The notes under the pieces were generated by a model. That model was not told the origin of the DNA, ran no database searches, and worked only from the letters and a program-made list of their open reading frames with translations. A program made the position numbers and the translations under genes. Shown piece after piece: positions 4,492-56,350 of a stretch of DNA of 64,000 nt (position 1 is the stretch's first letter; the number at the start of each line of letters is the position of its first letter). The DNA comes from a virus, in the IMG/VR virus record IMGVR_UViG_3300040802_000094, positions 1 to 64,000 of that record; one strand, given 5' to 3'.

Positions 4492-4587
4492 TTTGTATTA
4501 CTTAAACTTCATCGTTATTCTCCCTTTTTTGTCTCTTTTTTCAAAAAAAAGAGACGCCATAACGCTATTTATTAGTGGAGTACCCGA

Positions 4588-7796: not shown

Positions 7797-9588
7797 ATGC
7801 ATATACGGGACGGTAGGTCAGGGAGACGATCGCCACGAAAGATCCCGGATTTCCTATTGGGGAAATTTCTACGGTTACGATATCTGGATTTGCCGCGATC
7901 GCCCCAATATCTTGACCGATGTGTGCGTAGCCGATCGTTTCGGACTGAGTGGTCAGCGTGGAACCGATCGCCGCTTCCGGCTCGAAAGATTTGGCCTGAA
8001 AAGTCCAGTAGTTCGAGGCGTCGTTTGTACCTTGCAGATCGACTTCTACGTCCAGGCGATCGAGGTAGATATCGAGTCCCGCAAACTCGGAAACCAGCGC
8101 GATACCGATCGCCGAACTCGTTTCGATCGCCTCCGAAGCGGTATTGGCCGTCAGGCCGATCCAGTTCGACCCATTCCACACCCAGTCGCGGTAAACGCTC
8201 GAAGGAGTGGTATCGTGCCAGTAATCTCCTGCCGAAGGATTGTCCGGCGGCAACCCTTGGTGGTAAAGCGTACTGCCATCCTCGAAGACCCAAGTATTGG
8301 AATATTCTTCGAGGATTTTTTTTGTCGATTTTAGGACGATTTGGAGGGAGTTGGTTGCCGGAGGTTCCGAAAGCGATACTGTAATTGAGTTTTCGTCTGT
8401 CGAATAGATCCGGCAGAATACCTCGTGTCCCGAGGCGATGTCGTAAACGATCGCGCGATCCATGTCGATCGCCCACGTATCCCCGCCGTGAATGAAGGTG
8501 TAGTTTTTATCGACCCCGTTTCCAAAAACAGAGGAATAACTATTTGTGAGTGCGTCATTTAAGGCGGTCGGATCGGAAAGCCAGGTCAGGCCGTCGAGGT
8601 AGAGGGGGGAGACGGAAATTCCGGCTTCGTCAACGACGATACTCCCGTTTGCGGCAAGAACCTTCAGTCCTTCGACGACGGCAGTCGTGCCGTATCCCGG
8701 AGAGATCTCGATTTTTGTCGGGGAGGATTTGTGAAGCCCGTGTCCGACAGAGATGTCTGAAATTTTGGAAAGACGGGTGAAGGTGAGTGGAGAGACGCCG
8801 ACGGTTAGCGTGCCGTCGGCGTCTAAGATAAAAAGGTAATCTCCATTTTCCGTCCCTTCCGCGATCGCGACGATCGAACCCGGATTCGCTGTTGCCCCTT
8901 CGTCAAAATCCGAAGTACGGATCCATTCCCCTCCTTCTACAACTCGGAAGATGCCGTTGTCTGCGGGGTTCGCTTGCCCGGTCGCCAGTACGCGATCGTC
9001 CTGTAGCAGGCTGACTCCGTCGATAACCTGCAGTCCGCTCAAGGCGAGGTTCGTCGTAGCGGCGACGCGGCAGGGCTTCCAGAACGAAAATCCTGTCGCG
9101 ATCGCGGCAGTTGCCGAATCGATCTCTGTAGTAACGTATCCGAGTGTGGTGGCGTCGCTTCCGCCGACGGGAGAGGAAAGCCCGGTCAGTCGGGTAGTCG
9201 TTATTTCGTTGAAGCTTGCATTTCCGGAACCGTCCCGCCGCGCGATCGTATTTTCGGTTGCAGCTTCGGTTGCTGAATTGAGTCGGGCGAAAAGGGAGGG
9301 CGGCATCAACCCGGAAGTCGAGGGACTTGCTTCGGCGATCGCCATCGCCAGTAGCTTGTCGTTTCGCGAAATATTTAGCGAACCGTTGGCACTCGTGACA
9401 GAGTCTAGGGACTGAGAGACGGGTCTCGGGCTTCCGGTGGAGGGATCTCCGAGGAACAGTCGTCCGCCCTGGAATGCGAGTCCTTTCGCTGCCGGGGCTT
9501 CGCTGGCGACGAACGCAGTTGTTGCCGAAATTTTTATATTCTGAATGCTCGCCAGGCCGTCTCCGGAGAGGTGTTCGGGAAGTTTCAT
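7795..9588 (-). CDS. tail fibre protein (minus-strand paralog, fused form)
   Basis: A 597-residue fibre. Residues ~1-430 parallel the fibre at 50216 along their length, with shared DGSGNxxFNE, TGLSSP, ALSGLQ and FDEGAT/FDEDSE blocks, ending in a strand-rich domain typical of phage fibre tips. Residues ~430-597 parallel the separate protein at 51589 (WLD/YWHDTT, WNGSNWIGL, DASNYW, VTVEISP). So one chain here equals two adjacent genes elsewhere in the same phage. Its start overlaps the nuclease stop (ATGA), making it the second gene of a two-gene minus-strand operon. It probably contributes to host recognition as an alternative fibre. Confidence 0.78.
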   Translation of the reverse strand: MKLPEHLSGDGLASIQNIKISATTAFVASEAPAAKGLAFQGGRLFLGDPSTGSPRPVSQSLDSVTSANGSLNISRNDKLLAMAIAEASPSTSGLMPPSLFARLNSATEAATENTIARRDGSGNASFNEITTTRLTGLSSPVGGSDATTLGYVTTEIDSATAAIATGFSFWKPCRVAATTNLALSGLQVIDGVSLLQDDRVLATGQANPADNGIFRVVEGGEWIRTSDFDEGATANPGSIVAIAEGTENGDYLFILDADGTLTVGVSPLTFTRLSKISDISVGHGLHKSSPTKIEISPGYGTTAVVEGLKVLAANGSIVVDEAGISVSPLYLDGLTWLSDPTALNDALTNSYSSVFGNGVDKNYTFIHGGDTWAIDMDRAIVYDIASGHEVFCRIYSTDENSITVSLSEPPATNSLQIVLKSTKKILEEYSNTWVFEDGSTLYHQGLPPDNPSAGDYWHDTTPSSVYRDWVWNGSNWIGLTANTASEAIETSSAIGIALVSEFAGLDIYLDRLDVEVDLQGTNDASNYWTFQAKSFEPEAAIGSTLTTQSETIGYAHIGQDIGAIAANPDIVTVEISPIGNPGSFVAIVSLTYRPVYA

Positions 9589-10427
9589 GAGGTTTCCTCG
9601 CTATCAGTAGTAGAAAAGTTCATCCAAAGGGAATTCTCAGGGTAGGAGCGATTGGGGAACCGTAAGGAAAAAACGAGGCGATCGCCGATCCAAACTTGTT
9701 TCCAGAAGATTTCGGGGACGGAGGTACTGCCAATTTTTGCGATTTCGCCCGTCACTCCCGCCACAATTGTAAGCTGGTAGCCCATTCGAGAGAGAGAGCG
9801 ACAGTATTCTTCAAACTCTCGCCACGCTCCCCTATTTAATGTTGGATTTTGTGCGGCGACATTTGAATAAAAGAAGGTCGATTCATTGTCTTCCAGGGTT
9901 CGCGAGCGATCGGCAGAAGGGATTAGGTGTCCCCGATCCCATCCCGTCCCCAGAAAGTCAAGATCTCCTGCTTGGTCGCAAATGACTTTAGGATCTCTAA
10001 TAAAATTATCAGATCGCCGCGCGGAACCAAGCCAAAATGGAGATAGTTGCCAGGCAACCCAGTACGGACGGCGGCGATCGCAGTCGTAGTTCAAGACGTA
10101 CTGCTCCCTGTAGATCGTCGTGCCGTTCTCCGGACTCGGGCTTTTTGGCGGAAGGTGGCTTCCTAGAAATGTCGGCCTTGTTTGGGAGGGAATCTTGTCG
10201 TCGGCGTAGCAAGAGGGGCGATCGCCTCCCTCTCTTTCGTAAGCCGACTTCCCCTCGCACGAATGTCCGGAGATTTGCATATCGTAGGGACAGGTACACC
10301 GCCCAATCGTCGGCAGTCTTACGCGAGATTCGTCAGCTCGGACTTCAAGGGCGATCGCGAACCAACTTACTAAAAAGGATAAAAGAATGGCGGAAAATCT
10401 TACGACAAAATCACTCTTTAAGGTCAT
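9585..10427 (-). CDS. secreted DNA/RNA non-specific endonuclease (NUC family)
   Basis: A 280-residue secreted nuclease. Residues ~8-31 form a signal peptide ending VRA. Residues ~44-74 have a cysteine-rich motif (CTCPYDM ... C ... SAY...GG..PSCY) that I associate with cyanobacterial exported proteins. The beta-beta-alpha-metal nuclease core is intact: WDRGHLIPSADR near residue 163 with the general-base His, and NPTLNRGAW near residue 195 supplying metal-binding Asn. It degrades single- and double-stranded DNA and RNA in related enzymes. It is translated just ahead of the fibre gene (ATGA overlap). Its start overlaps the 5' end of the opposite-strand gene at 10387 by 41 bases, an unusual arrangement. 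Confidence 0.88.
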   Translation of the reverse strand: MTLKSDFVVRFSAILLSFLVSWFAIALEVRADESRVRLPTIGRCTCPYDMQISGHSCEGKSAYEREGGDRPSCYADDKIPSQTRPTFLGSHLPPKSPSPENGTTIYREQYVLNYDCDRRRPYWVAWQLSPFWLGSARRSDNFIRDPKVICDQAGDLDFLGTGWDRGHLIPSADRSRTLEDNESTFFYSNVAAQNPTLNRGAWREFEEYCRSLSRMGYQLTIVAGVTGEIAKIGSTSVPEIFWKQVWIGDRLVFSLRFPNRSYPENSLWMNFSTTDSEETS

Positions 10428-10889: not shown

Positions 10890-10943
10890 CAATCAACTAA
10901 AAACCCGTTGCGACGTCGGTTGCAACGGGTTTTTAGTTGATTG
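10890..10943. terminator. strong hairpin, bidirectional terminator
   Basis: Twenty-two-base perfect arms (10890-10911 and 10922-10943), with core AAAAACCCGTTGC and complement. A- and T-tracts lie within the arms, so it can terminate in both directions. It isolates the DGQHR gene from the left. Confidence 0.85.
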
Positions 10944-11008
10944 TCGATGTTATCTTATGTCCTTTTCTAGCAATCTTATATGCTGTTGATGTAGTTAAGG
11001 GACAAAAA

Positions 11009-12040
11009 ATGGACAGCAAAGTCACGTTTTGTGTGATGCCCGGAAAGCAGGGCGATCGCGATTTTTATGTCACCTCCCTGCCTTACGGGCAGTTGGCGGC
11101 GATCGTTCAAATCGCCGATTCCGCGATGCCGATCGAGCTTCGCAATCAACGACAGATCGACCCGCGCAGGGTCAAAAAGATCGTCGATTACCTCGAAGAG
11201 AAAAGATCGAGGTTCGTATTTCCCTCGATCTTTTTAAACCTCGATCCGAAGGCGGAAGTCTCCATCGAACCCGTTTCCTCGGGAGCGATCGAAATGAGCC
11301 TTCCCCTCGGGAAAACGAGGTTGTTCGTCGTTGACGGCCAACACCGACTTACGGCGTTGGCCGAATGGTACGAGCAGACTGGAGACTCTTCAATCCTTGA
11401 AGAGTCTCTTTCTGTGATGATTTTCCGCCTGGACGAGAAGGGTCTCAGGGAGGCGTTTGTCGATATCAACTCGACGGCAAAGCCCGTCGATAAGTCGGCG
11501 ACATCCTTTCTGGGATCCCCGTCGGGCGGTGCCGATCTCGCAAGGGCGATAATTGGCAGAGGCCCAAAGGGTATGGAAGGAGAGTATACGATCCCCGTAC
11601 TTCGGGCGATCGTGGATCCGGACAAGCGCGTGACGGCTACCTCGAAGGTTCCGAAGCTGTTTGGCTTTGAGGCGATCGAGGAGGTCGTTTCAAAGTCGTT
11701 CGGAACGAAAACCCCTTTCCTGCAAAGAAAAAAAGCCGTATGGCGGTTTTGGAAAGGGGTTGCCGAGAACGTCCCGGAATGGGGCGAAGTCGCCGAACTC
11801 AGAGGAATCACCGCGAGACAGGCGGCAATTCGCATCCGCCAAGAAGGGATCGCCGGAACCCTTCTTTTTATCCGAGCTTTGTCTCGGGTATGCGAAAACC
11901 ATCCGGGGAAGGACGCCTTCTCCGATACGGACTTTTCCGGGCTGCGATCGCTCCCCCTAATGAGGGGCGATGAGGCGATCGCCTCATCGCCCCCGACACC
12001 GGACGTATTCGGGCGAATACACGGACAATCGCTCAATTGA
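11009..12040 (+). CDS. DGQHR-domain protein (DndB-like)
   Basis: A 343-residue member of the DGQHR group. The hallmark is FVVDGQHRLTAL near residue 107, with a preceding NQRQIDPRRVKKIVDYL segment, as in ParB/DndB-type proteins, and a following FVDINSTAKPVDKS stretch. DndB regulates phosphorothioate DNA modification; other DGQHR proteins are found in modification and restriction loci and on phages. No dnd genes are present here, so a role with host modification, or a regulatory/decoy role, is inference. AAGGGA precedes the ATG at 11009; an in-frame ATA/ATT-rich upstream extension is ignored. It is a single-gene unit between two strong terminators. Confidence 0.8.
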   Translation: MDSKVTFCVMPGKQGDRDFYVTSLPYGQLAAIVQIADSAMPIELRNQRQIDPRRVKKIVDYLEEKRSRFVFPSIFLNLDPKAEVSIEPVSSGAIEMSLPLGKTRLFVVDGQHRLTALAEWYEQTGDSSILEESLSVMIFRLDEKGLREAFVDINSTAKPVDKSATSFLGSPSGGADLARAIIGRGPKGMEGEYTIPVLRAIVDPDKRVTATSKVPKLFGFEAIEEVVSKSFGTKTPFLQRKKAVWRFWKGVAENVPEWGEVAELRGITARQAAIRIRQEGIAGTLLFIRALSRVCENHPGKDAFSDTDFSGLRSLPLMRGDEAIASSPPTPDVFGRIHGQSLN

Positions 12041-13736: not shown

Positions 13737-15807
13737 ATGCTTTTGAATTTGAGGTTGGCGGCGGCAGTCGCGATCGCGGAATGCAATAGCCTCGGCTTGC
13801 AGGTCGAGGCAAAGGATCGCCTTCGCTATCCGGCGGGATCTGTCGTGGATGGCATCAGTGTTGGCGGTCGCTTCAAGCCGAAAGACGAGGCAGAGGTTCT
13901 CGCCGAAGGAATCCAGACCCTCTCCGATTGGATCTTCAATGGCAACGATCGCCAGATAGAGAAAGGGTGGGACGCCTTTCTGCGGAAGGGCGATCGGAGG
14001 CTGGAGGAAGATCCGTCCTATCGCGATCGCTTTAACGAGATGTTCAAAGCAGTTCGCGACTCTGTTTCCGAGGTCTGGCATAAGGTATCCCCCCCCGATC
14101 GCGGAAGCCTTCGACGCGATCGAGGCCAAAGTCGGCAAAGTCCGCAAGTTCATGTCCGTCGAATCCCTCGACGACTGGATTGGGGGGCGAGTCGAGAAGA
14201 TCGACGAAGGGACGCTTGCCAGACTCGTCGCGGAAACCTTACAAGGGATGACGGTTCATGTCGCTACGGCTGCGCTGAATTTGGCTCCTGAAGTAATTGC
14301 GGGGATGGCGTTCGGCCAGGCGATCGTTCCCATCGTTTTGTCGGGGTTGGTATCCACGGCCATCTTTTCTACCGCTTTTGCTGGCTCTAACTTTTTGCTC
14401 GAAAAGGCGAACCTCCCTCCGGGAGTTAGAGGGGTTTTGTCTACGGGGGTTGCCGTCTTATCGACGTTTGCCCTCGGAGTCAAAAGTCCGGCGATCATGA
14501 AGGCGCTGCGATCGCGCAAGCTGATTTCGTCGGGAGAGAAACTGAGGGAGGCGGGGTTAAAGGTTCTAGCCGAAAAGGGAACCGATGTATCTCTCGTTCG
14601 GAAGTCAATACAAAAAGAAACCGCCGTACTTAAGCAGCATGGATTTGACAGCCTCGAAGACCTAGAAATTCGCCTGGGACAAATCAAAAAAGAATCGAAA
14701 TTTATTAAATCGTTCGACCTGATTCGCTGTACCCCGGGCGGCCCCCTTCAAAGATCTTTAATGAAGCGAGCGGCCAAAGATCTTGGAAAGGACGAATTTC
14801 GTAAGATACGGGAGTATTCTCGGCTTTCTTCGTTGCACAGCAATTCGATCGTCTCAAAAAGGGTAAGGGAACTTTCCTTGTTTGCTCCAGACAGTCAGCA
14901 TTTCAACTGGAGAAGACGAGTTGTTGAAGCGGACGCGAAATACGGACATCACTTGGATGAAATAAAGGATCCACTGTTGCGCAAGAAGGCGTATTCCAGT
15001 TTGATGAGGACACTTAAAAAGGGAAAATCCAACGACTTTAAGTTCAATATAATAAGTCCCGAAGCCCGTTTCCACATGCGATCGTTGAACCCGTTTTTAT
15101 TGCGACTGGATCCCTATACGAAGGATGAGATGTTTGAAGTAGTTCTTCGCGCTAAGTCTGGGTTCAAAGAATTCAAGAAACTTCACAACCATACGGCGGA
15201 GATTTACGTTTTCCCGGTAGGAAAACACAGAAGGGTCGAAAAGGCTGGTTCCTCAGTGTCGTTCATGTGGCGACCTCCCAAGTTGCCGTGGACTTCGCCT
15301 TCTCGTGCCAAGACTACAGTAAAAAAGATCCCGACGGAGCGACCTTCTTTTCTTGAATCGCTTGAAGCGTTGCGGGAGAGTGTTGGCGATCGCGGATATA
15401 TTATAGGGTTTGACGTTCTGGGGAATAACGCCAAAAACGTTAGAATGCTAAAGCTTTTGCCGGAAAAAGATCGAGCAAAAGCCGTCATGTGGCATGAGAT
15501 GACTCACGGGATTATGGCTTTAAATCCGAAGTTGGCGACAGAAACGGGATTGCATGTCGGCACGATTTATGACGAACTCGGTATATTTGGGGGATTTACG
15601 GATGGGTACGGTACGACACTCTATCCAAAACCTTTTTCAACTTCTTTGTATTCGGGGCCTCTTAGTGGTCGATACACGGCCTCTAATAACGAGTTCACCT
15701 CGATTGCCGCCGAACACCTTTCGCACCCCGACATGGCTTCTCAGTTAATCAAAAAAAATAAAGAGCAAATGTTGGCACTCCTGTCTATTCTCGATACGGC
15801 AAAGTAA
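13737..15807 (+). CDS. tagged HExxH metalloprotease-like protein 1 (frameshifted)
   Basis: About 690 residues if one frameshift is repaired. A GAGGAGG ribosome site precedes the ATG. Residues ~1-25 are a hydrophobic/amphipathic segment, and the tag RYPAGS ... VGGRFKPK is at ~30-50. The frame then breaks at an 8-C run (14089-14096); reading continues in the +1 frame (PPIAEAFDAIEAKV ...). Beyond lie a hydrophobic domain (EVIAGMAFGQAIVPIV, about 100 residues), a helical region and a C-terminal domain with WHEMTH (15490-15507), NPKLATETG and GFTDGY. HExxH plus a conserved Glu suggests a zinc peptidase. Likely delivered with or in the virion (inference). First of three TAATG/ATGA-coupled paralogs. 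Confidence 0.75.
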
Positions 15808-17815
15808 TGAAGAATATCAAGTTACATCTCAGCGCTTCGGCGGCGATCGCGGTAACAGAAATCCAACGATTCCTGTTGATTTGCGAAGAGGCTGCCGATC
15901 AACCCCGATGCCCTCCCGGGACGCCGAGGGGCGGGCAGTGGAAATCGAAAAAGGCGGGTGTGGAGAAAAGGCGTCATCCGATCCCTCCGACGACCGCCGA
16001 CCCGATCTCGAATCTGGGTCAACGGCGATCGCCAAAGATAACCCGATCGTCGTCAACGCGGGGGCGATCGGCCAAATCAACAAGATCTTTGACGACACGA
16101 TCGCCGCGTCCGAGGAGTTGCGGGACAACTACGAGCGATACCTGACCAATGCAGGCAAGGCGATGTCGGACGTTCTCGGGGCGATCGCTCCGCAAGCCCA
16201 GAAAGTATTCGATAAAATCTCCCTGCCCGAGGTCGATTCTTCTCCGGCTAACATGATGAACTTGGTCGGAAAGATCGAAAGTAGTGCCGCCGACATGGCA
16301 GTCGGCGAGTTGATGGGCAGCCTTGGAGAGCTTTGTTCTATTTTCCTCTGTCAGGGGCTAAAAGTATCCGCCACTTTGGGGCCGGAAATAGCCGTTGGCA
16401 TGATCGCGGGGCAGGCGATCGGTCCCGCGATCCTTGCCGCCGCAGGGGGCGCACTGGCTACGGTTGTGCTAGAGAAGGGGATCGAGTACACGCTGCGAGC
16501 CGTAGGGGCGGAGGAAGATGTGGCGAGATCGATAGGGAGCGCGATCTCGGTTGCTTCTTGTATTTTCGGCCTCGGCATAACTTCTCCAAAGTTACTTAAA
16601 GCCCTGCGTAGCAGGAATTTAATGAAGAACGCCGATGCTTTGAGGGAGTCTGGAATCAAGATCCTTTCTAAGAGCGGGGTTGACGAAAAGGTCGTTCGCT
16701 CGATCGCCCGGAAAGAAATGAAGGCGATCGAGGCAAAAGGTTTCGCTTCGCTGGAGGAAATGGAAAAACACCTCTTCGATCTGAGGAAGACAAAATTGGT
16801 CAAGCGAATCGAGGGACTCGACTTCGTCCAAGAGGAAAGCGTCCGGAGGGAAGCCATCTCGAACTTCCTCAAAAACGCCTCCCCCGAAGAATCTGCAAAA
16901 CTAAAACAGTTTTCCGAGCTTTCTCGGGTTCACGGGGATACGGTGGTCTTGAAGCGGCTTCGAGAGATTCCGGCGATTCGCGAAGGATCTCCTCAGTTCA
17001 ATTTGAGGAAGCGATTGATCGAAGCTTCGGCAAAATACAAGGACGATCTCGATGCGATTCGCGAATCGGGAGGGGCGACGGCAGAGTATTCGGCTTTACT
17101 CAAGAAAATCAGGCGAAAAGCGAAGAATCCATCCACCCTCCACCGCGCGACCGAAGCACAAGAAGAGGCTGGCGCTAACTTTGCAAAGGCACTAGTGCCG
17201 CAGCACGCAAGCGAGTTCAAAACGCTTGGGGCGGCAGAAAAGAACAAAATCGCCAGTCAAGCTGGCAAGGCTTTTGACGAATTCAAGCAAATTCACGGAC
17301 GAAAGCAGAATATAAAACTTGCGATCGTGGGGGAAGGGAAAAAGGGAACTCCTCCCACTGCCTTCATGCTAAATATCCCGAGAATCAAGAAGGATCTTCT
17401 TGGAAAAACACCGTTGTTTAGAAGGATTACCGATGCTTTTGAGGGGGACAAAAGTGTTTTACTTTTCGACAACAATCTTTCGGTATTGAGGGGAATCGAA
17501 AATCTCGACGAATTCGATCGGGTCAAATCTCTTGTGTGGCACGAATCTATGCACGATATCACTTTTGGCAACCCAAAATTGGCGCAAGAGACTGGCCTCC
17601 TCGTCCGACAGATTAAATCCGAGCTGGGCAGTTTTGGCGGGTTTGTCGATAATTACGCCTCAAAATTGTATGGAAATCCTTTTGAATCAATTAACAACGA
17701 ATCTCTCTCGATTGCGGCAGAAAGTCTATCTCATCCGAAGCTCATGAAAGGGTTTCTCGATCGCGGATCGGAGCAGATGCTCAACCTGCTGTCCGTATTG
17801 GAGAATGCGACATGA
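15807..17815 (+). CDS. tagged HExxH metalloprotease-like protein 2 (frameshifted)
   Basis: About 668 residues when a -1 frame change is allowed. It starts at the ATG overlapping the previous stop (TAATG). The N-terminus is again a hydrophobic helix, then a variant tag CPPGTPRGGQWKSKK. The open frame moves to -1 near an A-run (AAAAAG, 15948-15953); both frames are open around it, so the exact point is uncertain. The body then matches paralogs 1 and 3: a hydrophobic domain (EIAVGMIAGQAIGPAI), a helical middle (QFSELSRVHGDTVV), WHESMH (17537-17554), NPKLAQETG, GFVDNY and a C-terminus with NESLSIAAESLS. TTG at 15881 would be the only separate start for the downstream frame and removes the tag. 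Confidence 0.75.
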
Positions 17816-19443
17816 TTTCCCGACTTTCGCTCTCTCTCCGTCTTTCCGAGATTTCAATGCGTTGCGCGCAGCTCGCGATCGCAGCAGAAATTGAGGGACC
17901 CGAGCGCTATCCGGCGGGGACGACGATCGACGGAGTCAACGTCGGCGGACGATTTAAGCCGAAAAACGCTACGTCGGGGGGATTGTCGGAGGATGCTCGA
18001 GAACTGACGTCCGATTTTCTTCAGAAAAAAGAGTCGATCCTTCAAAAGTTTGCCACTTCAGTCAGGGATTTGGTTTCGGAGGCGATCGCGTCCCCTCTTT
18101 TGCAAAGGCTGATCTACGGGGCTTACAACCGATTAAAAATAAAAAGCGTATCCCAAATCAACAAAGAACTGATCGATAAAGGGGTCGAGATCCTCGCCAA
18201 GGAAGGCGTCAGCAAGCAAGCCATCGAGGCGGCGATCGCTCGCGAGTCTCAAGAACTGAAGCGCAGGGGGTACGATTCTTTTGAGTCTCTAGAGAAAGAT
18301 GTCGCCAAAATCCTAGAGTCCCCCGAGATAAAGCAAATGGCCGCGAAGCTTTATCCTCACGCTGAAATTGAGGCGCTGATCGACGAAGACCCGTCTCTCG
18401 GCAGGAAGCTCAAAGATCTGTTCGACAAGTCGGGACTGCTGTCGGAGTGCGTCGCGACGAGGCGGGCGAGAGAAATGCCTTTCGTCGATCGCGACAGCAT
18501 CGGGTTTTCCTATCGAAAGCGGATCGTCGAGGCGGCGATCGCCTACGGCGGACAAGTAGACGCACTGCGGGGAGCCGAAGATCCCGCGATCGCCCACAGA
18601 CAAATCCTCGACACCTTGAAAGCAAACAAGAAGCACGACGGTAAGATAGACACTCACTTGCTCTTATTTAACGAGGCTGGCAAGAAAGCTACGGAAATGA
18701 AGCTAACCAAAATCTTCTCGCAAAAAGTGGAACTCGTTGACATGAAGCGGGGGGAAGGGAAGGCGATCGCGGATCGCCTTCAGGGTTATGCGAAAGAATT
18801 GTCGGAAATCACCGGATTCTCGTTGAACATCCCCTTCATGATTTGCGATTCCGAGATAAAACCCGGCAACAACCTAATGACGTTCGTCGGGGGTCTGAAG
18901 GATGTCGTCGCTTTCGATCCTCAGTACCTCGACAAGGAGTACCTCGACAATCTAATTTCGTCGTTTACTTCGACCAAGCACTCGGGCAATGTGTTTTCCT
19001 TCAACAAGAATCTTGTCGATATCGACGCCGTACGTCGGTTTGACGATCAAACCCAAAAAGAGCGGGAAAGAGGCTACGTTTGGCACGAGATCGGACACGA
19101 AATCTCCCGTAATAATCCTCAACTGACGAAGGAGACGGGGTTTTTAGTGTTTGATTCGTACAACCAGTTCGGCAGGGTTGGAGGGTTTACCGATTTTTAC
19201 GCGACCTTTGTCCAGCCCGGCATTCCCGATGTCGGACCACTGCCCACCATTCCCGTCAGCGACGCCTTTTCCTTATTAAACAAAATGCACCTTCGACCGT
19301 TCCGCTCGAAGGACGTTTACAATACCGAGGCTTTTTCGATCGGCGTCGAGTCGCTTTCTTCTGCCAACTACGCGCAGTATTTCGCGCAGAGGAGTCCCGA
19401 GCAGTTACTCAACACTTTATCCGTTTTGGAAAATGCTAAATAG
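17812..19443 (+). CDS. tagged HExxH metalloprotease-like protein 3 (intact)
   Basis: A 543-residue, uninterrupted member of the trio. Residues 1-25 form an amphipathic segment and the tag RYPAGTTIDG ... VGGRFKPK ends near residue 52. It lacks most of the ~100-residue hydrophobic domain of copies 1 and 2, which explains its shorter length. The C-terminal domain has WHEIGH (19081-19098), NNPQLTKETG, GGFTDFYAT and EAFSIGVESLSS. The spacing of a late Glu after HExxH recalls lethal-factor-type peptidases, but the match is weak. It overlaps the preceding gene by ATGA. Substrate unknown. Confidence 0.8.
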   Translation: MISRLSLSLRLSEISMRCAQLAIAAEIEGPERYPAGTTIDGVNVGGRFKPKNATSGGLSEDARELTSDFLQKKESILQKFATSVRDLVSEAIASPLLQRLIYGAYNRLKIKSVSQINKELIDKGVEILAKEGVSKQAIEAAIARESQELKRRGYDSFESLEKDVAKILESPEIKQMAAKLYPHAEIEALIDEDPSLGRKLKDLFDKSGLLSECVATRRAREMPFVDRDSIGFSYRKRIVEAAIAYGGQVDALRGAEDPAIAHRQILDTLKANKKHDGKIDTHLLLFNEAGKKATEMKLTKIFSQKVELVDMKRGEGKAIADRLQGYAKELSEITGFSLNIPFMICDSEIKPGNNLMTFVGGLKDVVAFDPQYLDKEYLDNLISSFTSTKHSGNVFSFNKNLVDIDAVRRFDDQTQKERERGYVWHEIGHEISRNNPQLTKETGFLVFDSYNQFGRVGGFTDFYATFVQPGIPDVGPLPTIPVSDAFSLLNKMHLRPFRSKDVYNTEAFSIGVESLSSANYAQYFAQRSPEQLLNTLSVLENAK

Positions 19444-19452: not shown

Positions 19453-19785
19453 ATGGCTGTAGTTAAAATTAAATTTGTCAACGTTGAAGATTCCAGTCAC
19501 TACGTCAAAATTACTTTAGACAAAGTGCCTGAGTTCGAGTCCGACTCCGTCGCCTTCAGGTACGAAACGAACCGGGAAAAGGACGATCGCTTTCTCCTGG
19601 GCTTGGTGGTCGGGAGGCACTGGCGCATGAAGACTGGCGTTTGCAGTGCGGCTGAGATCGTAGACGCCGCATTGCAGACGGCATTGATGGAAGGGTTCCG
19701 CTTGGTCTCCGATATTCCGGAACTCAAGCCAGCGAAGCCGCTTTCAGAAGAGCAGAAAAGAATACAAGACCTCATTATCGATTGA
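19453..19785 (+). CDS. hypothetical protein at the end of the HExxH operon
   Basis: A 110-residue protein with a GGGGAG ribosome site, nine bases after the third HExxH gene and before the palindromic terminator. It is therefore the last gene of that operon. It contains beta strands (VVKIKFVNVED, HYVKITLDKV) and a C-terminal helix. Position suggests a partner or immunity-like role for the HExxH proteins, but nothing in the sequence proves this. Confidence 0.6.
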   Translation: MAVVKIKFVNVEDSSHYVKITLDKVPEFESDSVAFRYETNREKDDRFLLGLVVGRHWRMKTGVCSAAEIVDAALQTALMEGFRLVSDIPELKPAKPLSEEQKRIQDLIID

Positions 19786-19789: not shown

Positions 19790-19827
19790 GCCCACCTAAA
19801 TTGCAGACGTCTGCAATTTAGGTGGGC
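19790..19827. terminator. 38-base perfect palindrome containing the TGCAGACGTCTGCA element
   Basis: Arms GCCCACCTAAATTGCAGAC and complement meet without a loop at GACGTC. The central AATTGCAGACGTCTGCAATT recurs at 57798-57817 and 63766-63785. Followed by TTTATT, it can terminate the HExxH operon; the recurrence suggests a second role. Confidence 0.7.
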
Positions 19828-19839
19828 TTTATTCTAGCC

Positions 19840-21843
19840 ATGAAATACAGCCGCCATTTTTTCTATAACCTGCCCGCCTACGCCCAGCTCATGGACGATC
19901 GCGGTATCTTGGAGCATTTCCTTTCGGGATTGCAGGACAACCTGGACGAAATCCGCAGCCGCCAAGAGTTTCTGCGAATTATTGTTTATTCCGTGGACTA
20001 TTGTCCCGACGAATGGCTGCCGTGGCTCGGGCAGTGGGTCGGCCTTTCCGGAGAACGCGATCGTTTTCTCGGTATGGGCTTGAATCCGGATTGGCCGACC
20101 GCTCACAAGCGGGAGGTCATCCGCAGAGCTTGGGAGTTCTGGAATCGGAAAGGAACCGAATGGGCGATCAGAGAGGGGACGGCGCTGTGGCTGAGGTGGG
20201 AAGAGTCCCACGATCGCGATCGCCTGGAATTCGTCCATCCATTTGGCAAGCAGATCGGCGATCGCCCTCCCCTTTGGCAAGGCTGGGGCGATCTTTGGAG
20301 TGCTGGGGCGACTCGCCTGACGACCGAGCGCCGGAGACTGGGAGGGGGCGATCGCCAGCCGAACGACGTTTTGGAGAAATTTGATTATTTCGTTCCGAGA
20401 TCTCCTCATGGAAATCGCTTCAACAGGCGGTGGCCGACGCGGAATTTGTATCGAATCGATCGCCCCACTTACCGGGAAGGGTCTCGCCTCGGTCCCCACA
20501 GCGTCTGGGAGCGTTTTACCCGGCTGACTGAAAACGAGTGGCATCGATTCTTCCCCGACGTCGTCAAGCTCAACTACGAATTATGGGCGACGGAGGTACG
20601 ATCGCTCCCGATAGGGGAAATGGAGATAGGAACGCTCTCCGTTTCCATATTTCCTGAGAAACCGAAAGTCGTCGTCCGGTCGCACTTCCGCAAAACGTCC
20701 GTGGACGGGATTCAATTTGGGGACAAATTTCCCCGTCGCAAAAGCGGCTTCACCCGGACTTCTCCTGTCGAGACAGGGGGGTGGGCGACGCGGCGGTTCC
20801 TCCGTTTCGGCGATCGCCTGGGAGCTTTTCCCTACGATAGGACTTCGCTGAAGGACGCGATCGTTCTCAACTTTTTCCCAAAGAAAAAGAGTTCGAGTAT
20901 TTACGGAAATCCTTACGGATCGTGCCGAATGCTCGAACTCAAAACAAACCCTTCTCAACTCCCGCACAACCATTTTTGGCTGCTGTCTACCTCTCTGAGA
21001 CCCGGGTTTCCCTGGCCGTCCAGGTTTTTGCCCGGCTCTGTTGAAATTTTTCGGCGAGCTGAAACTGCCTTTTATCCTACAACTTCTCCTGCCGTTTTGT
21101 CTCGCGGCCTCGTCCCGACTACGGAGTTTTATTCCAATACTTCGTGGGGAATGTATGCGGGGCGAGGGAAAGTGCAAGGAGAATCCACCGTCTTCGTGCC
21201 GACATGCGATCGCCCTGGACTGGCAAAAGCCTTTGAAACGTCCCACTGCACTCCGTCGCGGCGATCGTTCGAGGCGGACGTTAAAAACAACCCCTCTCGA
21301 TTCGAGAAAGGTCGGTGGGGAAACCTCTGGTATCGCGAGCGGTTTTTTGTTAGAGGGGTATGGGGAGAAATACCCGGAAATTGTTGGACGGAGAGATCGC
21401 GGTATCCGACTTGCGGGATTTACAAACAATTTTCGCGACGACAAGTTCGCGGGTATTTCTACGAAACGATTGAAGAGAATTCGCCAAAAGAGCGATATCC
21501 TCAAATAAGAGAGATGGCAACGGTCTCTAACTGGGAAATCTTGCTTACTTTAGGTGGAGGACATGCGATCGCCTATCCTTCGGCATTCTTCGGGATTGAC
21601 GAATCTGGCAATCGCGTGTCCTTTTTCTCTCCCGCGATCTCGCGCGGTATCCTCGAATTTTCTATATCGGTCGGCCAGCAAGAGTGGTGTTCGGGGATCT
21701 CGTTGCTTTATAAAAAAGGAAAAATCCGACTTCACAAAGGGTTCGACCGCCCGATCTGTCTCGCTCCAAAAACGATGGGAGTATTTAGGGCAACGATTGA
21801 AATCGATTATATGGAGATCGAATATGATTCTTTTGGAGGCTAA
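19840..21843 (+). CDS. baseplate protein of the P2 gpI (Tail_P2_I) family, extended
   Basis: A 667-residue protein. Residues ~1-120 match the gpI fold of contractile-tail baseplates: a Leu-rich N-terminus, LDEIRSRQEFLRI, a CPDEWLPWLGQWVGL segment and a helix ending in KGTEWAIREGT. gpI helps join the baseplate wedge to tail fibres. The remaining ~550 residues are beta-rich, Arg/Pro/Trp-rich and unassigned, far longer than P2 gpI (~180 residues), so this may be a gpI-fibre-adaptor fusion. Start choice: ATG at 19840 has no Shine-Dalgarno; GTG at 19822 is possible but lies in the terminator stem. Its last 20 bases overlap the next gene. Confidence 0.75.
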   Translation: MKYSRHFFYNLPAYAQLMDDRGILEHFLSGLQDNLDEIRSRQEFLRIIVYSVDYCPDEWLPWLGQWVGLSGERDRFLGMGLNPDWPTAHKREVIRRAWEFWNRKGTEWAIREGTALWLRWEESHDRDRLEFVHPFGKQIGDRPPLWQGWGDLWSAGATRLTTERRRLGGGDRQPNDVLEKFDYFVPRSPHGNRFNRRWPTRNLYRIDRPTYREGSRLGPHSVWERFTRLTENEWHRFFPDVVKLNYELWATEVRSLPIGEMEIGTLSVSIFPEKPKVVVRSHFRKTSVDGIQFGDKFPRRKSGFTRTSPVETGGWATRRFLRFGDRLGAFPYDRTSLKDAIVLNFFPKKKSSSIYGNPYGSCRMLELKTNPSQLPHNHFWLLSTSLRPGFPWPSRFLPGSVEIFRRAETAFYPTTSPAVLSRGLVPTTEFYSNTSWGMYAGRGKVQGESTVFVPTCDRPGLAKAFETSHCTPSRRSFEADVKNNPSRFEKGRWGNLWYRERFFVRGVWGEIPGNCWTERSRYPTCGIYKQFSRRQVRGYFYETIEENSPKERYPQIREMATVSNWEILLTLGGGHAIAYPSAFFGIDESGNRVSFFSPAISRGILEFSISVGQQEWCSGISLLYKKGKIRLHKGFDRPICLAPKTMGVFRATIEIDYMEIEYDSFGG

Positions 21844-22798
21844 ATGCCTTGCTTGCGAAACAGATTTGACGCGATTGATCGTTCTCGCGCTCGCAGCAGA
21901 GCCGGAGGCGACAAAACCCGGATCTGGAACCGTCGAAAAGTATGCTGCCGACTGGCTCGAAGGTGGGAAGACAATCTACCGCGACGCCTCCGGTCGTTTC
22001 GCTTCGGGGGTGAAGCGAGAAATCGCGAAGCAAGCGATCGAGGATACGGGAAGGAAGGTCGCCCGAACGGCGCAGGACTTAGGGGAGTCCGCCGGAATCG
22101 CGATCGTCTCCATTCCGATCCTTGCGGAAATCGGCTTGGACGCCGTACGAAATTTGGCGACGAACCCGGATTTTCGTCGGCGTGCCGGACTGATGGCCAC
22201 TCAGGCGATGGGGAGCGCGATCGCCGCTTTCGCGAAAAAGCTGTCGGAGGACTCCAAGGTTGCCAAGATTGCGGGAGAATACGCGGCCAGGGCGCAAAAA
22301 GAACTAGAAAAAGAATACGGAGCCTACAACAATCCAGTCACCCAAGCGGTGTGGGAAGCGCGATCGCTTGTGGACTCTACCGTACTGAGTCGCCCCGAAG
22401 CTAGGCTGAGGGGAGTCAAAAAGCAGCTTACCCTCGGAATTTGTCAGTACGTGGCTCTAGAGCAGGCGCTCAAAAAGCCGAGAAAAATTTCCAAGGATAT
22501 ATTGGACGTTTCCAAGGCATCTCTTTACGGAATCGTCATTCCTGCCGTCCTGCTCGGCAGCCCGATCGCCGGAGTGGGAGTCGGAACTGCATTGCTCCTC
22601 CTGTCCGTACCGGGAATCGAGTTGGCGAAGTCCAATTTGCTCGCCTATTTTCGCGAGAAGCAGAAACAGGAGAAGGCGCTAAGGGAGGCGATCGCCTCCG
22701 GGACGAAGACGGTAGAAGACGGTTTCAAGTTATCGATGGAAATTGCTAAAAAATTCATTGACGAGACGCTAAAAGCTATCCAGTCAAAAGGTTCGTAA
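21824..22798 (+). CDS. tagged helical protein, paralog 2 (GRFAS-tag family)
   Basis: A 324-residue protein starting at ATG 21824 with GGAG seven bases upstream, overlapping the gpI gene end. Residues ~1-25 are hydrophobic (LTRLIVLALAAE). The tag KYAADWLEGG ... RDASGRFAS is at ~39-62. A helical domain shared with the paralogs follows (DFRRRAGLMATQAMGSAI, EYGAYNNPVTQAVWEA, CQYVALEQALKKP). A long hydrophobic stretch lies near residue 240 (IVIPAVLLGSPIAGVGVGTA) and a charged C-terminal helix ends it. Tandem with two paralogs. Likely a virion-associated, membrane-active or ejected protein (inference). Confidence 0.75.
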   Translation: MILLEAKCLACETDLTRLIVLALAAEPEATKPGSGTVEKYAADWLEGGKTIYRDASGRFASGVKREIAKQAIEDTGRKVARTAQDLGESAGIAIVSIPILAEIGLDAVRNLATNPDFRRRAGLMATQAMGSAIAAFAKKLSEDSKVAKIAGEYAARAQKELEKEYGAYNNPVTQAVWEARSLVDSTVLSRPEARLRGVKKQLTLGICQYVALEQALKKPRKISKDILDVSKASLYGIVIPAVLLGSPIAGVGVGTALLLLSVPGIELAKSNLLAYFREKQKQEKALREAIASGTKTVEDGFKLSMEIAKKFIDETLKAIQSKGS

Positions 22799-22813: not shown

Positions 22814-23704
22814 ATGTCTTTCAAAACCAGAATTTCTCCATATTCTTGCACGATCGCGCTTTCGCTATCTCAACTGAGTACGTCGATAGACCTTCGGTCG
22901 GCAGGGACGAAGGAATACGAGGCCGATTGGTTAAAAAGTGGCGTCAAGGTACTGCGGGACGCTTCCGGTAAATTTGCCTCCAAGGCGGGAGATGCCACTC
23001 AGGCGGTAGGGAGTGCGTTCGCGGCAGTTCCCCTGGGGCTGGTGATTTCCGAAAAAATCGTACTCGACCTCGCGACCGACCCCAAGGTAAGGAAGCGTTT
23101 GGGGTTGATGGCGGGACAAAGTACGGCCAAGGCAATATCGAAAGCTGTCGAAAAGATAGACAAAGACTCTGCTTTCGCAAAGCGGATGGGGGAATATGCC
23201 ACATCCTTGCAAACTATGCTTGAAAAAGAATACGGGGAACAGAAGAGTCCTCTACTACAGTCGCTACACGAGGCCGCACTCATCACTGGCGGCGATCGCT
23301 CAAAAAAGACGAAGCTAAAAGATAAGATAGAGTTCGCCGTTTGCCAGTACGCGGCCTTCCACGAAGCGTTGAAAGATCCGAGGAATTTAAAAGAAGAGGA
23401 CATCAATCCAAAGTTCCGCAAGGAGGTAATGAACTTCGGAACCCGCACTTATGTTGAGGGAGTAGCGGTCAGCATCCTATTTGGCAATCCCCTCTTCTTG
23501 ATAACGGGACTTCCGGCATTGCACATCATGTTTCCCGAGATAAAATCCAAGGTTAAAAAAGCTCGCCTCGATCGCTACGCAAAAGGAGCAGGCGAGGCCG
23601 AAGGGCTGTCGAAACAAACCCAGGCGATCGCCGAAGACCAGCGCAAGGCAATTGAAAAATTGCTCGACGAGAGGAAAAAGGAAGCGTCGGCAACCCGCGA
23701 TTGA
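22814..23704 (+). CDS. tagged helical protein, paralog 3 (GRFAS-tag family)
   Basis: A 296-residue paralog with GGAGGG before ATG 22814. It has an N-terminal hydrophobic segment (CTIALSLSQL), the tag EYEADWLKSG ... RDASGKFAS (~35-58), and the shared helical domain (KVRKRLGLMAGQSTAKAI, EYGEQKSPLLQSLHEA, CQYAAFHEALKDP). A hydrophobic stretch near residue 215 (GVAVSILFGNPLFLITGLPA) and a charged helical end follow. Order and spacing match paralog 2, so the pair arose by tandem duplication. Confidence 0.75.
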   Translation: MSFKTRISPYSCTIALSLSQLSTSIDLRSAGTKEYEADWLKSGVKVLRDASGKFASKAGDATQAVGSAFAAVPLGLVISEKIVLDLATDPKVRKRLGLMAGQSTAKAISKAVEKIDKDSAFAKRMGEYATSLQTMLEKEYGEQKSPLLQSLHEAALITGGDRSKKTKLKDKIEFAVCQYAAFHEALKDPRNLKEEDINPKFRKEVMNFGTRTYVEGVAVSILFGNPLFLITGLPALHIMFPEIKSKVKKARLDRYAKGAGEAEGLSKQTQAIAEDQRKAIEKLLDERKKEASATRD

Positions 23705-23748: not shown

Positions 23749-24789
23749 ATGAATACAGTTTTTGCCATAAAAGCCGTTTCCCTCCGTCACGATTTAAGAC
23801 GTCTGCAACTGTGCTGCGCTTCCAGCAGGATCGAGGCGGCGGAACTCAAGGAGTACGACGCAGACTGGCTCGATGGAAAGAAGGTAATGCGGGATAGCTC
23901 GGGACGGTTTGCTTCCAAAGTGGCCGACACCGCCAGCCAAGTCTCTAAGGCGGCAGGAGCGATCGCGGAAGGCGTCCGATCTCTCGCGGAAGATGTCGGT
24001 TACCTGTCTCAATATGCGGGTCCCCTCGCTACCGCCACGGCGCGAGGGGTAATGAACGCCGTTTCCGACCCTAGATTCTTGAAAAATCTGGCTCTGGAGG
24101 TCGGCAGCCGTGCGGGAGATTTGTATTTGGCGATCGGCGAAATGATTGGAGCGATAGACAACCCTGTCGCTCAAGCTGCCGCGATTCCTCCGTTCGTCGC
24201 CGGAACCTCGCTAAAGATGGCCTTCGGAGCTGGCTTGATGTCCGACTACGGCTCGGCTGGCAGCGCAACGCGGCAGGCGGACAAAGATGTTGCGGAATAC
24301 ATGAAGTCGAACAACAAGCCGGAAGATAAAAAGAAGAAAGTTAGAAATTTTCTAGAGAAGCAGATCCTGGGATTTATCGCTTTTGAAAAAGCACTGGAAC
24401 ACCCCAAGAATGTAGAAAAAGCGAAGGAAAACAAAGAAGAAAATAAGAAGGCGAAGTTGCTCGGACATGCGGCCTTCGGTGGCTTTTGTGGCGGGATGCT
24501 CGCGTTAACCGCGATTAAGAACGGACTGATGAGCGCCGCTCCCGCCACGTCGATCCCCGCAATCTTGATTCCGGCGATCGGCGCTTCGCTCTTCAAAGGA
24601 CTCGATAAGGATACCAGTGCGAACCTGAAAGAGTTCCTTCAAAAATGGCAGAAGGAAGAAAAGGCTGCTAGGGAAGACGGCGTTTCGGAAGAAAAGATCC
24701 AGAAGCAATCCCTCGACTTCATGAAAAAGTTTTTCGCCCTCGGGAAAGGCGCGGTGGACAAGACGGTGGATGCCGCGATCGGCGCATAA
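23749..24789 (+). CDS. tagged helical protein, paralog 4 (GRFAS-tag family)
   Basis: A 346-residue, more divergent paralog with AAGGAG before ATG 23749. The N-terminal segment is followed by the tag EYDADWLDGK ... RDSSGRFAS (~36-58). A helical region (DPRFLKNLALEVGSRAGDLY) matches the family. An inserted stretch (AAAIPPFVAGTSLKMAFGAG), a Lys-rich helix and a late hydrophobic segment (GGFCGGMLALTAI) follow. It is last in the three-gene tandem array; a hairpin ends transcription. Confidence 0.73.
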   Translation: MNTVFAIKAVSLRHDLRRLQLCCASSRIEAAELKEYDADWLDGKKVMRDSSGRFASKVADTASQVSKAAGAIAEGVRSLAEDVGYLSQYAGPLATATARGVMNAVSDPRFLKNLALEVGSRAGDLYLAIGEMIGAIDNPVAQAAAIPPFVAGTSLKMAFGAGLMSDYGSAGSATRQADKDVAEYMKSNNKPEDKKKKVRNFLEKQILGFIAFEKALEHPKNVEKAKENKEENKKAKLLGHAAFGGFCGGMLALTAIKNGLMSAAPATSIPAILIPAIGASLFKGLDKDTSANLKEFLQKWQKEEKAAREDGVSEEKIQKQSLDFMKKFFALGKGAVDKTVDAAIGA

Positions 24790-26002: not shown

Positions 26003-28574
26003 GTGCGATTCGTTCGGGAATCAAATAGGGCTGAAATGCCCGAAATAACCTCCCGGTAGGGCTTTCATCCCCTTGGATGAATATAAGGGACACACCCCCT
26101 GACCAGCCTTATAACTATCCATAGGTTCCAAAGTTTGGTATCACAAGATACCAAATGAGGTCGGAACTCTCAAGGTCAAAGGGAAAGTTGGAGAATCTTA
26201 ACAATTCTTAACAATCCCCGAGAGAGGAGGCGATAGCCACCCCCAGTTTTGGGACTCACAACCCCAGGATTGAAGCGGGGAACGGAAGGCATGAGGTGGA
26301 ACCTGCCACCAATAACTGACCACTGCCAACCATCTATGATTAACCGAAAGGTGAACGTCTGACATGAACCCTCGATACAATCGGGTATCCAAACCAGGTT
26401 GAAAGGATGCTGCTCGAATGAGCAAGTGGAAAGATGGGATGCTTGTTGCCATACCCATACAGACCTTCAAAGTACACCGGGGGAGAGGACGAATCTAAGG
26501 ATGGAATACCCCTATGGATGGAACGAAGTAACCCCATAATGGCTCTTGTTAAATGGTCGATTAAGCAAGTAGTGACGGCAATAGCCAAAAGTGTAAGCGT
26601 ATGCCATATGGGGGTGAGATGTGACCAGAAGCCAATGCCTGAATGTAATGTCCAGGATACGCTGACAGGTCACGGTTCAGTTGTAAGATATGAGGCTCCA
26701 GTAGCAATTTAATGACGAAATCTAGAACATCAAAAGGCTTTGGAAAACCAAAACCCAATGACACTAAGAATGTATGGAAAACTGTCAACTGGGCGAAAGT
26801 CCAACGACAAGTTTTCAAGTTGCAAAAGCGCATCTATCAAGCGGCTCAATCGGGGACTGTTGCAAAAGCTAGAAGGTTGCAAAAACTCCTTTTAAAGTCA
26901 TACTATGCAAGGCTCCTTGCGGTTAGGCGCGTAACCCAAGATAACCAAGGTAAGAAAACAGCCGGAGTAGACGGGGTAAAATCAATATCCCTGAAACAAA
27001 GGTTAGAACTAGCTGAGGAAATCAAAGGAAACTTCAAAGCCAAACCCCTTCGGAGAGTATGGATACCAAAACCTGGGCGGGAGGAAAAACGCCCCCTTGG
27101 TATCCCCACAATCCGAGATAGAGCCAAGCAAGCCTTGGTCAAGATGGCATTGGAACCCTTTTGGGAACCATTATTTGAGGGAACAAGCTATGGGTTCCGA
27201 CCCGGACGCTCAACTCACGATGCCATAGCAAGAATCTTCTTAAGCATCAACAATGGGAATTATTACGTTCTCGATGCTGACATTGCTAAGTGCTTCGACC
27301 AAATTGACCATGACTACCTACTATCCAAACTTCGTTGTCCAACGACCATCAGGCATAATATCAAACAATGGTTAAAAGCCGGGGTCATGGATAATGGTGT
27401 ATTTGACGATACGAAAACAGGGACACCCCAAGGAGGGGTAATTAGTCCACTCCTCGCCAACATTGCACTGGATGGAATGGTGAGGTACATCAATCAAATC
27501 TTCCCTAACAAAAAGGGGCAGAAGATTAAAGCAACTGTCGTCAGATATGCTGATGATTTCGTGGTCATCTCACCGGAACGCGAAATCATTGAACAGTGCC
27601 AGATTGCCCTATCCGAATGGTTAAAGCCCATCGGACTCCAACTCAAACCAGAAAAGACAAGAATTTGTCACACCCTTCAAGAAATTGAAGTAAACGGCGA
27701 AATAGTCCCACCTGGTTTCGACTTTTTGGGGTTCAATATTAGGCAATTCCCAGCCGGAAAACACGTATCCGGAAAGAGCGGTGGCGCAGCCAGTAAATCA
27801 CTAGGATTCGTCACCCACATGAAACCGAGTAAAAAGGCAATCAAAGCCCACACCGAAAAGGTTAAAGAGGTGATAAAGAAACACAGAACATCACCTCAAG
27901 CCGCCCTGATAAGAGACTTAAACCCTGTCATCAGAGGATGGTCGAATTATTACTCAGGGGTAGTCTCAAAAGAGATTTTCGGAAAACTGGATAATACCAT
28001 CTGGTTACAACTTAGGGCATGGGTAGTATCGAGATGTGGAAAGGTAGGTTACGACCAATTCAGTAATTATTTCCGACCAGGAACAGTAAAAATTGGGAAC
28101 GGTCAGGAAAGACACGAAACATGGCTATTCCAGACAAAAGATGGACTAACACTCCACAAACATAACTGGACACAAATAATCAGACACAAGCTGGTCAAAC
28201 CTGAAGCATCACCGTATGACGGAAATTGGACGTACTGGGCAACTAGAAGGGGAACCGCTATTGGAACCCCGCAGCGAGTAGCAAAACTGCTGAAAAAGCA
28301 GAAAGGAAAGTGCAACCATTGTGGTCAGTATTTTACAAGTACAGACTTATTGGAAATCGACCACATCACTCCTCAAAGCCTCGGCGGAAAGGATGATTAC
28401 AAGAATCTCCAATTGTTGCACCGTCACTGTCACGACCAAAAGACTGCCCTAGATGGTAGTCAAAGCCGTACCCATAACAATGGGACAAATGGACTAGGAG
28501 CCGTGTGAGGTGAAAGTCTCATGCACGGTTTTGAATGGGAGGGGGAGATGGTAACATCTCTCTCGACCCCTAAT
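26003..28574 (+). mobile_element. group II intron (with reverse transcriptase ORF)
   Basis: The 5' end begins GTGCGATTCGTTCGGG, matching the GUGYG consensus, followed by about 700 bases of structured RNA (domains I-IV). The RT/maturase ORF lies in domain IV. Domain V is recognisable near 28497-28535 (GAGCCGTGTGAGGTGAAAGT ... CACGGTT) and domain VI with hairpin GGGGGAGATGGTAACATCTC follows, with the 3' end at about CCCCTAAT. Boundaries are good to a few bases. The element contains almost no GCGATCGC, in sharp contrast to both flanks, which supports acquisition from elsewhere. It sits between two transcription units, just upstream of a terminator, so it interrupts no gene. Confidence 0.88.
26712..28508 (+). 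CDS. ltrA: group II intron reverse transcriptase/maturase with HNH endonuclease
   Basis: A 598-residue intron-encoded protein. Residues ~70-330 are the reverse transcriptase (GIPTIRDRAKQALVKMALEP, YGFRPGRSTHDA, DADIAKCFDQIDH, GTPQGGVISPLLANIALDG, and catalytic YADDFVV). Residues ~380-480 are the maturase X domain (RDLNPVIRGWSNYYSG). The C-terminus is an HNH endonuclease (CNHCGQYF ... LEIDHITPQSLGG ... HRHCHDQK) that would cut the target for retrohoming. All catalytic motifs are present, so the intron may be mobile. The codon style is AT-richer and lacks HIP1, unlike neighbours. Confidence 0.96.
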   Translation: MTKSRTSKGFGKPKPNDTKNVWKTVNWAKVQRQVFKLQKRIYQAAQSGTVAKARRLQKLLLKSYYARLLAVRRVTQDNQGKKTAGVDGVKSISLKQRLELAEEIKGNFKAKPLRRVWIPKPGREEKRPLGIPTIRDRAKQALVKMALEPFWEPLFEGTSYGFRPGRSTHDAIARIFLSINNGNYYVLDADIAKCFDQIDHDYLLSKLRCPTTIRHNIKQWLKAGVMDNGVFDDTKTGTPQGGVISPLLANIALDGMVRYINQIFPNKKGQKIKATVVRYADDFVVISPEREIIEQCQIALSEWLKPIGLQLKPEKTRICHTLQEIEVNGEIVPPGFDFLGFNIRQFPAGKHVSGKSGGAASKSLGFVTHMKPSKKAIKAHTEKVKEVIKKHRTSPQAALIRDLNPVIRGWSNYYSGVVSKEIFGKLDNTIWLQLRAWVVSRCGKVGYDQFSNYFRPGTVKIGNGQERHETWLFQTKDGLTLHKHNWTQIIRHKLVKPEASPYDGNWTYWATRRGTAIGTPQRVAKLLKKQKGKCNHCGQYFTSTDLLEIDHITPQSLGGKDDYKNLQLLHRHCHDQKTALDGSQSRTHNNGTNGLGAV

Positions 28575-36413: not shown

Positions 36414-36475
36414 CAAACATCCCGATTCCTCCGAGGAAACGCAGATTCGATCGCTAGTTACTTGAGAGTCTCTTT

Positions 36476-36886
36476 ATGCTCAAAATTCTTTACATAGAAG
36501 ACTCGGAGGACGACTATGAATTCTTCAAAATTGCCTTTGAAGGAAAGGCGGATGTCGAGTGGGAGGAAAGTGCGAGGTTCGCCCTCGACTCGCTCAAGCA
36601 AAGGAGAGTCGCGGACTATCCTGACTTGATCTTTCTCGATTTAAATTTAATCGGCATTTCCGGACTTGAGTTCTTAGAACTGCTTCCCCGAGAAGCCCCT
36701 TACGTCCTCGCCAAAGTGCCGATCGTTATTTTTACCTCAAGCGCGTATTATAACGATATCGACATGGCTTACCTACATCGAGTCTCCAGCTATATCAGAA
36801 AACCCCTGGACATAGACGAACTTTGCGATTGCGCTGAAGTGGTCTGCCAGTTTTACGGGCAAACCTGCATTCTTCCCACAAAATGA
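36476..36886 (+). CDS. CheY-like response regulator (Rcp1 type)
   Basis: A 136-residue stand-alone receiver. The acidic pair is Glu8-Asp9, the phospho-acceptor is Asp55 in LIFLDLNL, with Thr87 and Lys109 in the conserved switch positions. The long C-terminal extension and D-L-N-L phosphorylation loop are those of the phytochrome-associated Rcp1 group. It should accept phosphate from the kinase 62 bases upstream. It has no output domain, so it must act by protein-protein contact, perhaps on the next gene product, to which it is coupled by an ATGA overlap. Confidence 0.9.
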   Translation: MLKILYIEDSEDDYEFFKIAFEGKADVEWEESARFALDSLKQRRVADYPDLIFLDLNLIGISGLEFLELLPREAPYVLAKVPIVIFTSSAYYNDIDMAYLHRVSSYIRKPLDIDELCDCAEVVCQFYGQTCILPTK

Positions 36887-56292: not shown

Positions 56293-56350
56293 GCTTTTGC
56301 AAGGATATAGAGAAAGAATAAAAATGGAACCTGAAGTAAAAAAGTGAACG

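Follow-up and report, generated by a model that had tools for sequence, protein, structure and literature searches.

The window analysed here is a 64,000-nucleotide (64-kb) stretch of an 84,955-bp (~85-kb) IMG/VR virus record, IMGVR_UViG_3300040802_000094. Between positions 13,737 and 19,443, its plus strand carries a tandem array of three genes (copies 1, 2 and 3) whose products contain an HExxH motif. As a preliminary description of this DNA had stated, the motifs follow one another as WHEMTH, WHESMH and WHEIGH; they lie in the ORFs at 14152-15807, 15881-17815 and 17812-19443. Each is followed, all in register, by NPxLxxETG, GGF(T/V)DxY and N(N/T)ExxSIxxExLS, and the spacing WHExxH-x5-NPxLxxETG in the catalytic core is common to the three. 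The HExxH codons are located at 15493-15507, 17540-17554 and 19084-19098 in copies 1, 2 and 3, respectively, and those of a candidate zinc-ligand Glu at 15691-15693, 17699-17701 and 19327-19329. The genes are joined by TAATG at 15805-15809 and by ATGA at 17812-17815, also as described. A tblastn search with copy 3 as the query recovered copies 1 and 2 with 27-50% identity (best E value 2.4e-26); the similarity therefore reflects homology rather than chance. Copies 1 and 2, but not copy 3, contain a pair of hydrophobic segments.

While the picture of three coupled genes was confirmed, copies 1 and 2 turned out not to be single open frames, since their start codons and tags are off-frame. Copy 3 (17812-19443, plus strand, 543 codons) is the only uninterrupted gene of the trio, encoding an N-terminal tag (RYPAGTTIDGVNVGGRFKPK), a helical region and the HExxH domain. 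In copy 1, the N-terminal ORF (13737-14291, plus strand), with the tag RYPAGSVVDGISVGGRFKPK at 13824-13883, is out of frame with the catalytic body (14152-15807, plus strand), which comprises hydrophobic segments, a helical region and the C-terminal HExxH domain. The third-position GC signal moves from one frame to the other at ~14067-14097, spanning a run of eight C residues on the plus strand (14089-14096) to which both the sequence and the GC switch assign the frame change. Copy 2 is organised likewise, with an N-terminal ORF (15807-16145, plus strand; tag RCPPGTPRGGQWKSK) out of frame with a body (15881-17815, plus strand) that contains hydrophobic segments, a helical region and the HExxH domain. 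Here, the third-position GC changes frame somewhere within ~15930-16017, a region in which inspection by eye found no canonical -1 slippery heptamer. The frame changes may be base-calling errors, recent mutations or slippage sites and, because they follow the tag, copies 1 and 2 may not be expressed as one protein each. A third frame break in the family was observed in a related contig, where a second-type peptidase gene (L242:3139-4853) is split at 4527-4548, directly before its HExxH.

These breaks, both in copies 1 and 2 and in the relative, would be expected if the trio were a decaying remnant in which the first two copies are pseudogenes and copy 3 alone is used. We consider such decay unlikely. 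Copy 3 is intact, the bodies of copies 1 and 2 (551 and 644 aa) are open and keep all their catalytic residues, and the third-position GC signal carries on in the new frame after each break. Given this continuity and the open bodies, each break should be very recent, a homopolymer base-calling error or a site bypassed by slippage.

Whole-protein searches with the trio retrieved no close relative from GenBank phages, IMG/VR, GTDB contigs or plasmids. A relaxed scan of viral contigs for WHExxH-x5-NPxxL provided the link to a known family, as most matches belonged to the C-terminal domain of P1 DdrB (PHROG 2299) and its relatives. Profile comparison of the C-terminal domain of the trio with nine DdrB-type domains yielded a probability of 97.6 and an E value of 3.6e-12. 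Since the scan had picked these sequences by the motif, homology was tested again with the motif cut away. In 200 column shuffles, the null was 10.4 ± 1.9 with a maximum of 19.6, whereas the downstream part alone scored 33.8. Upstream of HExxH, the profile test detected no match to DdrB, so the claim of homology is limited to the segment from HExxH to the C-terminus; longer similarity was found only with relatives from the phage's own lineage. Within the matching segment, the core of the trio aligns with WHExGHHxExxNPxLL ... LSxxYxxKIY ... TEVFSMALQ of DdrB, and its HExxH is in register with that of the DdrB-type zincin metallopeptidase (MPTase) family. Six columns (H, E, H, Y, E and S) are invariant among the 13 sequences aligned. 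One of them belongs to (N/T)ExxS and places the Glu in the second conserved C-terminal helix, where it would act as the third zinc ligand.

Judging from these alignments, the three proteins are very probably metallopeptidases of the DdrB type. This agrees with the earlier view of a metallopeptidase core retained in three diverged copies beside a variable hydrophobic part, the core aligning with the P1 DdrB type in both HExxH and the downstream Glu. The domain, whose fold the earlier description could not name, groups with the DdrB-type zincins of phage polyvalent proteins. This zincin type is the commonest domain of phage and plasmid polyvalent proteins and is found in DdrB (Iyer et al. 2017, PMC5512222). 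The enzyme type is thus already known; what is new is the tandem trio, its cyanophage lineage and the presence of its tag on unrelated cargo.

Structure prediction contributed little to recognising a zincin core, which would consist of a three-stranded sheet, an HExxH helix and a Glu helix. Two AlphaFold jobs returned weak models (pLDDT 45 and 60), and fold searches from them gave no match at E 0.001, the weak top matches of the pLDDT 60 model including a phage 'lethal factor' (E 0.13) and the zincin 3e11 (E 3.3). No sequence match to a lethal-factor-like peptidase (M34) was found in Pfam or PDB. As the predicted structures did not resolve the site, one could argue that HExxH arose in structural proteins by chance or convergence, with no metal site. 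This is highly improbable, however, given that three paralogues, full-length relatives and DdrB-type peptidases all keep both HExxH and the downstream Glu.

The trio also differs from its known counterparts in architecture. Neither Pfam nor PHROG revealed a second recognised domain beside the peptidase, so the three proteins fall short of the definition of a polyvalent protein, which requires at least two functionally different domains. DdrB is, like them, a phage protein, but it is present in a single copy and has an N-terminal ddrB-ParB domain, which a domain search found to be absent from the trio; in P1 it is a component of the virion head. With the zincin-like MPTases of polyvalent proteins (PMC5512222), the trio shares HExxH plus a Glu in a later segment, a phage setting and presumed delivery with DNA. 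In place of a second enzyme domain, it has a tag, hydrophobic helices and a helical region, and it occurs as three tandem copies.

Several features of the record bear on its host. It contains 141 copies of the cyanobacterial HIP1 octamer (GCGATCGC), and a group II intron reverse transcriptase/maturase with an HNH end (26712-28508) resides within the phage genome. The closest matches of this maturase, ~70% identical, are copies from Microcystis, Arthrospira and Planktothrix, which suggests the host group. Based on the HIP1 count, the likeness of the intron protein and the genome setting, the host is most likely a cyanobacterium.

The head genes occupy ~38-43 kb of the window and include those for the major capsid protein (39867-40979, plus strand) and a head-tail adaptor (42003-42638, plus strand). 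A tail protein gene of the P2 gpI family (19822-21843, plus strand) lies close to the trio. The capsid protein shares 48% identity with its counterpart in a cyanobacterial prophage of genome G660, which places both phages in the same lineage, and similar capsid proteins are encoded on five further IMG/VR contigs. None of the GenBank phages in the collection searched carries the capsid or the tag of this lineage, which is one without a cultured member. At the other end of the record, an open reading frame of 5,086 codons or more (69697-84954 of the record; L007 and L008) continues past the contig end and probably encodes an extremely long tape measure protein.

The N-terminal tag is not confined to the peptidases. 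The motif G[RKQ][FW][AK][SPK] is present in 6 of the 62 non-overlapping ORFs of the record, always near the N-terminus, whereas shuffles predict 0.14; a seventh occurrence, GGQWKS in the tag of copy 2, lies in a short ORF outside those 62. In addition to the trio, the tag is borne by four helical hydrophobic proteins that are paralogues of one another. One is encoded on the minus strand at 1748-3085 (RDASGRFAS, without HExxH) and three on the plus strand at 21824-22798 (RDASGRFAS), 22814-23704 (RDASGKFASK) and 23749-24789 (RDSSGRFASK). None of the four was found in 386 cyanobacterial genomes, in a search that had no positive control.

Across the lineage, the tag comprises a helix, hydrophobic or amphipathic and in many cases ending in LxLA[E/G], a spacer and then either RSPDGKFASK or DGVNVGGxF, the general form of the latter being DGVxVGGxF. 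Between proteins without detectable similarity in their bodies, tag identity reaches 74% over 58 aa (E 7e-30). An N-terminal segment common to unrelated cargo, which is one criterion for T4-type capsid targeting sequences (CTS), is present in the lineage. The RDASGRFAS/GRF motif is by itself non-diagnostic, as other phage proteins have it too, at internal positions rather than near the N-terminus. The hydrophobic part of copies 1 and 2, previously proposed to serve translocation, is better read as this tag common to unrelated cargo plus Gly/Ala-rich hydrophobic helices.

The tag thus resembles a sorting sequence, and we infer a sorting role for it. Targeting sequences of the T4 internal proteins and of P1 DarB are N-terminal as well, and in T4 they are common to different cargo. 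Work on P1 found that 30 N-terminal residues of DarB suffice for head loading and that no sequence is common to the P1 cargo. The DarB signal is contained within ~30 residues, while the lineage tag extends over ~45-60 and has a conserved GKFASK or GGRF end. The likeness is one of arrangement, with no sequence relation claimed, and the packaging role of the tag is putative.

Relatives of the trio were recovered from cyanobacterial genomes with a combined profile. A 648-aa protein of the G660 prophage matched the trio with a probability of 96.6 and an E value of 6e-10, the alignment covering 305 columns; it has an N-terminal tag ending in RSPDGKFASK, and its gene adjoins that of the head-tail adaptor. 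The same genomes yielded four further weak matches with E >1e-4 and one match to a short ORF. On all five IMG/VR contigs with the capsid gene, tagged genes lie immediately downstream of it, and full-length tagged peptidase genes could be read there in two. Contigs G674 and G675 have a second-type peptidase gene elsewhere, whose tag (RYPPGTIIDGVNVGGQF) shares 43-49% identity with the copy 3 tag.

It appears fairly probable that the trio is virion-borne and tag-directed, and this is our main reading. The tag would then be the address by which proteins are loaded into the prohead. In P1, DdrB is a head protein of the virion proteome (PMC9024508) and the Dar proteins are co-ejected (PMC12810830). 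The position of the trio is less easily reconciled with loading into the head. A tail gene is close by and the capsid gene ~20 kb away, in contrast to the head-adjacent relatives, and for this reason a tail location of the proteins is possible.

A more far-reaching version, to which we give a probability of roughly 0.45, is that an undescribed cyanophage lineage uses a modular N-terminal tag of ~45-60 residues to bring several unrelated proteins, as many as three metallopeptidases among them, into the virion for later ejection, and that in relatives a dedicated small protein accompanies the peptidases. Under the main reading, the trio would have arisen by tandem duplication of a DdrB-type peptidase in the uncultured lineage, and the enzymes would be ejected alongside the DNA. 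In copies 1 and 2, the Gly/Ala-rich hydrophobic helices could contact the membrane or other ejected proteins. The peptidases might cut cargo, namely themselves and the tagged helical proteins, at maturation or ejection, or else a host protein at entry.

The first type of target corresponds to a role in virion processing, in which the peptidases would cut themselves and other tagged proteins between tag and body at head maturation and would not be aimed at the host. Iyer et al. proposed autoprocessing of DdrB, a shortened form of which is found in heads (PMC5512222), and propeptides are removed from T4-type head proteins (PMC9026906, PMC7411985). The genome encodes several tagged candidate substrates, and many tags have an LAE or LAxE step at the end of the helix that recalls T4-type propeptides. 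This pattern is short, however, and marks a candidate site that may reflect chance. In addition, the divergence of the three copies speaks for multiple substrates or for an arms race, and not for a single housekeeping cut. We regard a mainly processing role as a real possibility, if short of an even chance.

Evidence on the second type of target comes in part from the Planktothrix phage PaV-LD, in which ORF080R and ORF081R are likewise tandem genes of the same peptidase type with an ATGA overlap; ORF081R is annotated as a virion structural protein. Both share an N-terminal tag that reaches other proteins, as in the window, but this tag is Cys-rich (QCVKPTxYNCGxxCIN) instead of GRF-type. It is also present on neighbours that we label ADP-ribosyltransferase-like from their sequence by eye rather than from a profile. 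The region at 52141-60205 of PaV-LD (L199) encodes five proteins with the Cys-rich tag: the two peptidases, two ADP-ribosyltransferase-like proteins, one with a doubled domain, and ORF078R. The arrangement in the G441 prophage is similar, and there a different zincin (L203:6071-7471; IHETGHNF...EDFAETARMYF) bears the same Cys-type tag as the DdrB-type peptidase. The direct profile match between the PaV-LD pair and the trio is moderate. In the tree they form separate clades (100/100), indicating that the peptidase has been duplicated in tandem twice.

A small gene next to the peptidase gene is a recurrent feature of related loci. In seven of them, the peptidase gene is preceded or followed by an ORF of 92-138 aa, which touches or overlaps it (gap of -8 to +1 bp). 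Six of the seven small proteins are connected by pairwise similarity (E 1e-68 to 4e-3). Genes of this family, with products of ~94-138 aa, overlap or adjoin DdrB-type peptidase genes of cyanobacterial phages at L241:2549-2911, L242:2723-3139, L208:15164-15511, L204:6395-6733, L196:16373-16657 and L203:9067-9417. An inhibitor or a chaperone would both fit the small partner of these relatives. In the window, a 110-aa ORF (19453-19785, plus strand) begins 9 bp past copy 3, in the position of the partner genes of related peptidases. Its sequence revealed no relation to the partner family, no member of which was found in the record.

If the peptidases were effectors, they would cut a host protein after ejection, for anti-defence or takeover, and the small gene would encode an inhibitor protecting the producer cell. 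The linked small genes, the independent tandem duplications in two phage lineages and the occurrence of a single tag type on further cargo, ADP-ribosyltransferase-like or another zincin, in PaV-LD and another prophage, are in line with this role, as is the action of the P1 Dar proteins against restriction (PMC12810830). On the other hand, the small partner could equally be a chaperone, and the trio lacks a recognisable member of that family either beside it or elsewhere in the record; we regard an effector role as possible, at somewhat less than an even chance. Between the two roles, the evidence is divided: DdrB, as a head protein with a shortened form, tips slightly towards processing, whereas the repeated duplication and the partner gene speak for effectors.

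For the main reading of a tag that loads proteins for ejection, the strong conservation of the tag on unrelated proteins means that the loading address of ejected proteins could be readable from sequence. Work on the tag would give an uncultured cyanophage lineage its first candidate ejected proteins, including peptidases whose targets can be sought.

The phage genome has further genes of interest. Upstream of the trio, a gene for a DndB-family (DNA phosphorothioation-associated) protein (10937-12040) lies close to one for a nonspecific endonuclease (9585-10427, minus strand), and a D12-class adenine methyltransferase is encoded at 64666-65790 of the record (minus strand). A GAF/PAS histidine kinase gene followed by a response regulator gene (33987-36886 of the window) is also located inside the phage genome, adjoined by a gene for a C39-type peptidase (33190-33957).
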